A stretch of 64,000 bases of DNA from Microcaldota archaeon. Lineage in GTDB: Archaea > Micrarchaeota > Micrarchaeia > Micrarchaeales > Micrarchaeaceae. The translations under genes were made by a program, and so were the position numbers. Under the pieces are notes generated by a model. It ran no database searches. It was not told the DNA's origin and saw nothing but the letters and a program-made list of their open reading frames with translations. Positions within the stretch are counted from its first letter, which is position 1. Each line of letters starts with the position of its first letter. The DNA lies in assembly GCA_021787495.1 (NCBI GenBank), contig JAJYLX010000001.1:124001-188000 (forward strand). Direction: 5' to 3'. Shown piece after piece: positions 11,972 through 12,068 of the stretch.

Positions 11972-12068
11972 TGCAGGGAGGGAGATTTGTTCGCTGTTTT
12001 GAACTCCCGTAGGCCTAAGCCAACGGATCTTGAGTCCGTCGCGTTTGACCAGGCTCCGCCATCCCTGC
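11972..12068 (-). tRNA. tRNA-Leu (anticodon CAA) with a 12-nt insertion in the T-loop
   Basis: The acceptor GCAGGGA/TCCCTGC is a perfect 7-bp stem. There is a D-arm with GG in AGCCTGGTCAAA, an anticodon stem ACGGA/TCCGT with loop CTCAAGA (anticodon CAA) and a long variable arm typical of tRNA-Leu. The T-stem GGGAG/CTCCC encloses 19 nt (TTCAAAACAGCGAACAAAT) instead of 7; removing 12 nt restores TTCAAAT and gives an 85-nt tRNA. GTTC and GAAC in the insertion can pair, as the central helix of a splicing motif could. It is most simply an intron at a non-canonical T-loop position, as known for tRNAs of Thermoproteales and some DPANN archaea. Confidence 0.88.

Follow-up and report, generated by a model that had tools for sequence, protein, structure and literature searches.

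Comparative evidence for a probable 12-nucleotide T-loop intron in a tRNA-Leu(CAA) gene of a Micrarchaeales archaeon

The tRNA-Leu(CAA) gene in the window (the entire 64,000-nucleotide stretch of DNA analysed) carries 12 extra bases in its T-loop, which are very probably a tRNA intron at position 58/59, to be cut out by an epsilon-2 splicing endonuclease, with RtcB joining the exons. We read the insertion as an intron of the relaxed bulge-helix-bulge type because its position, its motif, the enzyme encoded by the genome and the existence of natural intronless relatives agree. A non-canonical T-loop intron had been proposed in the first-pass annotation, which was made from the letters of the window, and the comparative data described below support that proposal.

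The tRNA-Leu(CAA) gene and its relatives

The gene was detected with cmscan on the minus strand (window positions 12068-11972) as a match to RF00005 with extra T-loop bases, scoring 45.5 bits vs a gathering score of 29; it went unreported by ARAGORN. None of the tRNA arms (acceptor, D, anticodon, variable and T) is missing, and all of them pair. As first annotated, the T-stem GGGAG/CTCCC surrounds a loop of 19 nt, TTCAAAACAGCGAACAAAT (12003-11985); the span of 11984-12005 originally assigned to the feature does contain this loop but also takes in one or two stem bases on each side. Deletion of 12 nt yields TTCAAAT, again as claimed, and the gene's own joined sequence folds into a 5-bp T-stem with a 7-nt loop. 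The features are as follows, in window coordinates:

11972-12068, minus strand: tRNA-Leu(CAA) gene with predicted intron, 97 nt (85 nt with the intron removed), from the cmscan match to RF00005 (45.5 bits), the fold and the joined sequence
11999-12068, minus strand: 5' exon, tRNA positions 1-58, as 58/59 is the sole split restoring TTCAAAT in 134/134 insertion-bearing relatives
11987-11998, minus strand: predicted intron AACAGCGAACAA, 12 nt, position 58/59
11972-11986, minus strand: 3' exon, tRNA positions 59-73
12030-12032, minus strand: anticodon CAA, by direct reading of the sequence
12004-12008, minus strand: 5' strand of the T-stem, GGGAG
11980-11984, minus strand: 3' strand of the T-stem, CTCCC
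12001-12004, minus strand: central helix of the predicted splice motif, exon strand GUUC (53-56), pairing with the intron 4-mer in 121/121 distinct T-arms
11989-11992, minus strand: central helix, intron strand GAAC, of which all variants pair among the 121 distinct sequences

The pattern GACTCAAGATC..GTTC..YGCA was searched over 301 genomes of the phylum, comprising 164 of the order (families f1 and f2) and 137 outside it, and matched in 152 (142/164 and 10/137, respectively); the 22 order genomes without a match were hence left unscored for the insertion. Rows for genera g6 and g12 were taken from a separate search. The counted rows had been collected via the anticodon stem alone, or together with GTTC and YGCA, and a set of 109 rows was set aside because its loci L105-L184 (80 loci) had been collected with a pattern that itself held TTCAA and ATCTC. 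Also removed before counting were L058, which matched the 13-mer and contained no tRNA; G162, which was unreadable as tRNA-Leu; the stray matches G028:C33 and G243:C110; the overlapping second match of G055; and the second tRNA copies of G224, G252 and G259, which likewise have the insertion.

With one row per genome, an insertion of 10-21 nt was found at the same place of the T-loop in 134 of the 142 matched order genomes, and a plain 7-nt loop in the other eight, namely G026, G008, G005 and five of one genus (G060, G098, G215, G217 and G219). The insertion of Ca. Micrarchaeum harzensis A_DKE measures 18 nt. Nine of the ten matching genomes outside the order were readable as tRNA-Leu(CAA), all with 7-base T-loops, the tenth being the discarded G162. 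Further plain loops were encountered outside the order with a second pattern, which only intronless T-loops can match; these were left uncounted, since introns are invisible to such a search. In the single-contig relatives G032 (989,838 bp) and G011 (952,257 bp), the sole tRNA-Leu(CAA) found has the insertion, and no intronless copy was found. Exact-pattern matches of the same gene were nearly all labelled Candidatus Micrarchaeota among the 80 listed of 118 stretches, the few remaining ones being labelled Marsarchaeota, Micrarchaeum, Micrarchaeaceae or 'uncultured archaeon'. Judging by these sequence comparisons, the insertion is evidently no local oddity but a feature beyond chance that runs through the whole order, in which the predicted intron at 58/59 appears to be ancient. 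The initial view of it as a feature of one genome had to be corrected to an order-wide one, although at least four separate lineages of the order, as judged from genus labels without a tree, are devoid of it.

The genomic setting is conserved as well. A C39-like peptidase family gene (DUF3335; 11957-11253, minus strand) lies directly downstream of tRNA-Leu(CAA). Across 82 loci whose downstream sequence extends for 300 bases or more, drawn from L048-L077 and L105-L184 with duplicates removed, such a gene follows the tRNA in 81, with an identity of 55.8-100% among the rows listed, and the exception is the intronless G026 (L062). Intronless G008 (L067) keeps the same downstream gene, and its intron was therefore lost precisely at the same locus. 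The peptidase gene is possibly co-transcribed with the tRNA.

Splice point, exon-intron helix and enzymes

Assignment of the splice point from the window sequence alone was rejected, as five splits, 55/56 through 59/60, all yield TTCAAAT. When the 134 insertion-bearing genomes were considered, the loop was restored in 118 at 55/56, 127 at 56/57, 128 at 57/58, 134 at 58/59 and 97 at 59/60. Since only 58/59 is unanimous, excision was placed there, which makes the window intron AACAGCGAACAA (11998-11987). Removal at this point thus restores a standard tRNA in 134/134 genomes, as for an archaeal bulge-helix-bulge intron in the broad sense. For such a motif, cleavage is expected at a distance of two bases from either end of the central helix, which is where the 58/59 split falls.

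That central helix was evaluated over 121 distinct T-arm sequences, counted without tree-based weighting. The intron 4-mer ending two bases before the 3' cut reads GAAC in 88, GGAC in 13, GAGC in 11, GAAT in eight and GGGC in one, and at this fixed register it pairs with exon GUUC (53-56) in all 121, in 33 of them via G-U pairs. When the register was slid from -4 to +4, pairing occurred in 1, 0, 0, 0, 121 (the actual register), 0, 0, 0 and 0 of the 121, and the chance rate derived from apical-loop composition is approximately 1.2% per sequence. The covariation is one-sided, consisting of G-U changes, because tRNA function keeps GUUC from changing. Residues U54, U55 and C56 are required in the mature tRNA for the elbow and its D-loop contacts; since the conserved pairing ties them up, it points to a precursor. 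An exon-intron helix of about 4 bp with the cuts two bases beyond it, formed by GUUC with GAAC or its G-U variants, is accordingly present, which bears out the suggestion that GTTC/GAAC pairing contributes to a relaxed bulge-helix-bulge.

Three folds were computed for the window T-arm. The minimum-energy one (-6.0 kcal/mol) has a 4-bp T-stem, a 5-base bulge and the GUUC/GAAC helix; the second (-5.9 kcal/mol) has a 5-bp T-stem and UUC/GAA; and in the third (-4.6 kcal/mol, 1.4 weaker than the best) the T-stem is slipped by two bases, generating a canonical 3-base bulge. All three lack an inner helix and leave the 8-nt apical loop unclosed, and the motif was therefore assigned to the relaxed, bulge-helix-loop type. 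The strict hBHBh' arrangement, in which a 3-nt bulge and a helix flank the 4-bp centre on each side, is not found, and the 5-nt 3' bulge of the minimum-energy fold counts against a strict bulge-helix-bulge. T-stem bases A52/U62 were considered as a signature of the slipped motif, which is unsupported, as the bases that permit the slip are shared by intronless outgroups (e.g. G188-G191 and G197).

The conservation of the insertion and its capacity to form a hairpin on the T-stem would also be expected if it were retained in the mature tRNA as an enlarged T-loop. However, that hairpin would occupy U54-U55-C56 and block the elbow. Moreover, the length (10-21 nt) and the apical sequence vary freely, whereas removal at a single point leaves exon bases that never vary, and plain 7-nt loops are found in eight members of the order and in nine recognisable outgroup genes. 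Retention is thus unlikely, and we regard it as highly improbable. A pseudogene or decayed copy, likewise unlikely, would agree with the missing ARAGORN call, and the gene need not be essential, because tRNA-Leu(TAA) could read UUG codons through wobble. Against this, all arms pair, 134 genomes have preserved both the gene and its insertion, and the downstream neighbour is the same at 81/82 loci. Furthermore, an intact second tRNA-Leu(CAA), in the presence of which the window copy might count as a pseudogene, was not found among the 39 tRNA matches of the source genome (852,337 bases in 10 contigs, 86.5% complete) or in single-contig G032 and G011, so that decay is barely credible.

Excision as an intron calls for suitable enzymes. 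The splicing endonuclease frame of the source genome spans 389 aa from a TTG and contains two tRNA_int_endo matches; its residues 1-389 align over the full length with residues 1-387 of the ARMAN-2 epsilon-2 enzyme (4fz2; E 1e-168). The residues aligned to K161, Y236, H251 and K282 of the latter are identical. A second PF01974 gene was not found in the source genome, which does encode an RtcB ligase, the archaeal joining enzyme. In the accessible portion of PMC6379350, Y236, H251 and K282 are described as catalytic and K161 as belonging to a loop. The hallmarks of the epsilon-2 type, namely a single chain of about 390 aa, three units, the catalytic Tyr/His/Lys and the ARMAN-specific loop lysine, are therefore all present. 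Epsilon-2 enzymes cut relaxed motifs, according to the sections available of PMC6379350 and PMC4033280, so the host encodes an endonuclease with the substrate range required. The first-pass annotation had anticipated a broad-specificity enzyme and proposed a check of the encoded subunits, which returned this three-unit single chain. Enzyme type was also considered as an explanation of the intron distribution. Outgroups whose detected gene has a plain T-loop (G188, G191, G197, G177 and G187) likewise have both endonuclease domains in one frame; this kind of enzyme is thus not confined to the intron-bearing order. Removal by a route other than epsilon-2, or at a nearby split (57/58 or 59/60, for instance), has a next to negligible probability: 55/56 through 59/60 would all suit this genome taken alone, but only 58/59 works in 134/134, the geometry of the helix places the cuts there too, and the genome has yielded the one PF01974 gene.

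For the preferred 58/59 intron, the precursor would have T-arm exon bases G53-U54-U55-C56 paired with the GAAC located towards the intron's 3' end, with unpaired A57-A58 preceding the 5' cut and AA preceding the 3' cut, in a relaxed bulge-helix-bulge (bulge-helix-loop). The epsilon-2 endonuclease would make its two cuts 3' of A58 and 5' of A59, and ligation of the exons by RtcB would yield the normal TTCAAAT loop. We infer that the gene is transcribed and its transcript cut and ligated by these enzymes, with intron removal most likely due to the epsilon-2 endonuclease. A broader interpretation, which we consider speculative and rather doubtful, is that of a vertically inherited intron that defines the order and occupies a position not listed before, 58/59, for which elbow bases U54-U55-C56 make up half of the splice motif, the T-stem slips by two bases, and splicing is an obligatory checkpoint. 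If this were true, T-loop modification and elbow formation would be impossible until the intron was removed, which could explain the long retention of so small an intron, and, with the two-base slip, the enzyme would encounter a canonical bulge.

Other tRNA genes of the source genome

Outside the window, tRNA-Arg(CCT) (L045; G000:C10:37261-37519) has a 22-base T-loop with a 15-nt insertion. A pattern that fixed GGGTTCRA and TCCC and left positions 59 and 60 free was searched over the 164 genomes of the order and matched this tRNA in 20: the gene of G263 has no insertion, and the other 19 contain one of 13-29 bases. The 59/60 split is the only one that restores TTCAAAT in 19/19, and TTCA:TGAA pairing is likewise present in 19/19. 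By this comparison, the insertion is a predicted second T-loop intron of the same genome, at 59/60. In G026, the leucine intron is absent and the arginine T-loop intron is retained.

Several further observations were made on tRNAs outside the window. The D-loop of tRNA-Leu(TAA) (L037; G000:C1:95612-95834) contains an insertion of ~17-18 nt that is probably another non-canonical intron. ARAGORN misses this gene and tRNA-Arg(CCT) in addition to tRNA-Leu(CAA), which serves as a warning that tRNA finders can overlook such genes. A 3' fragment of tRNA-Glu(TTC) (L223; G000:C5:29642-29697, minus strand) lies ~7 kb from the intact gene (C5:36674-36748), which suggests a remnant left by an integrated element. 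The tRNA-Ser(CGA) intron (L044; G000:C8:114702-114943) includes the stretch CTGATT.GTGATG, which recurs across the order in similar matches and may represent a kink-turn or an element resembling box C/D. Another intron-bearing tRNA (L035; G000:C5:56555-56786) has, as read by eye, the anticodon TAT (isoleucine), which is nearly completely absent from 167 archaeal genomes according to the available part of PMC6000648. With anticodons read by eye, tRNAs for Cys, Phe, His, Gly(GCC), Pro(GGG), Ser(GGA) and Thr(GGT) were not found among the 39 above-cut-off matches; either they lie on missing contigs or their genes are concealed by several introns.

Comparison with known systems

The tRNA-Leu(CAA) intron at 58/59 is a well-supported fresh example of a known intron type. 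It is a clean demonstration, by comparison, of a T-loop tRNA intron, with the splice point and the pairing fixed by more than 100 distinct sequences and natural intronless relatives serving as controls, and it offers the epsilon-2 enzyme a small natural substrate. Introns and the epsilon-2 splicing endonuclease of ARMAN-2 (Ca. Micrarchaeum acidiphilum) were reportedly treated by Fujishima in 2011. No description of the tRNA-Leu(CAA) intron was found in the portions available of the literature searched, and a prior report is possible (e.g. Fujishima 2011).

The tolerance of epsilon-2 enzymes for relaxed motifs is presented as an active structural question in the excerpted text of PMC12397907. 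The ARMAN-2 system (PMC12397907; PDB 4fz2) also belongs to the Micrarchaeota and, as far as these entries go, has the same three-unit enzyme as the present genome. The corresponding part of PMC4033280 reports tRNAs with multiple introns in ARMAN-1 and ARMAN-2 and an enzyme that cuts non-canonical introns at various positions. Beyond that system, order-wide conservation and a fixed splice point are seen here.

The first-pass annotation deemed 12 nt very short for an archaeal tRNA intron, which does not hold against the range of 11-129 nt, with medians mostly of 12-25 nt, in the extract of PMC4090602. The same extract lists intron positions including 53/54, 56/57 and 59/60; 58/59 is not named in that list, which ends in 'etc.'. 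Relaxed-motif introns of Thermoproteales, Nanoarchaeota and ARMAN are likewise short and away from 37/38, and share with the present one the T-arm location, the 4-bp exon-intron helix and the broad-specificity endonuclease, as given in the passages available of PMC4090602 and PMC6379350. In contrast to known relaxed-motif introns, which are spread between tRNA genes, the present one is kept at one locus across the order. Finally, permuted tRNAs of Thermofilum pendens and Cyanidioschyzon merolae also have a junction inside the T-loop, at 59/60 in the part available of PMC3218864; unlike these, the present gene is in normal order and its junction lies one base earlier.
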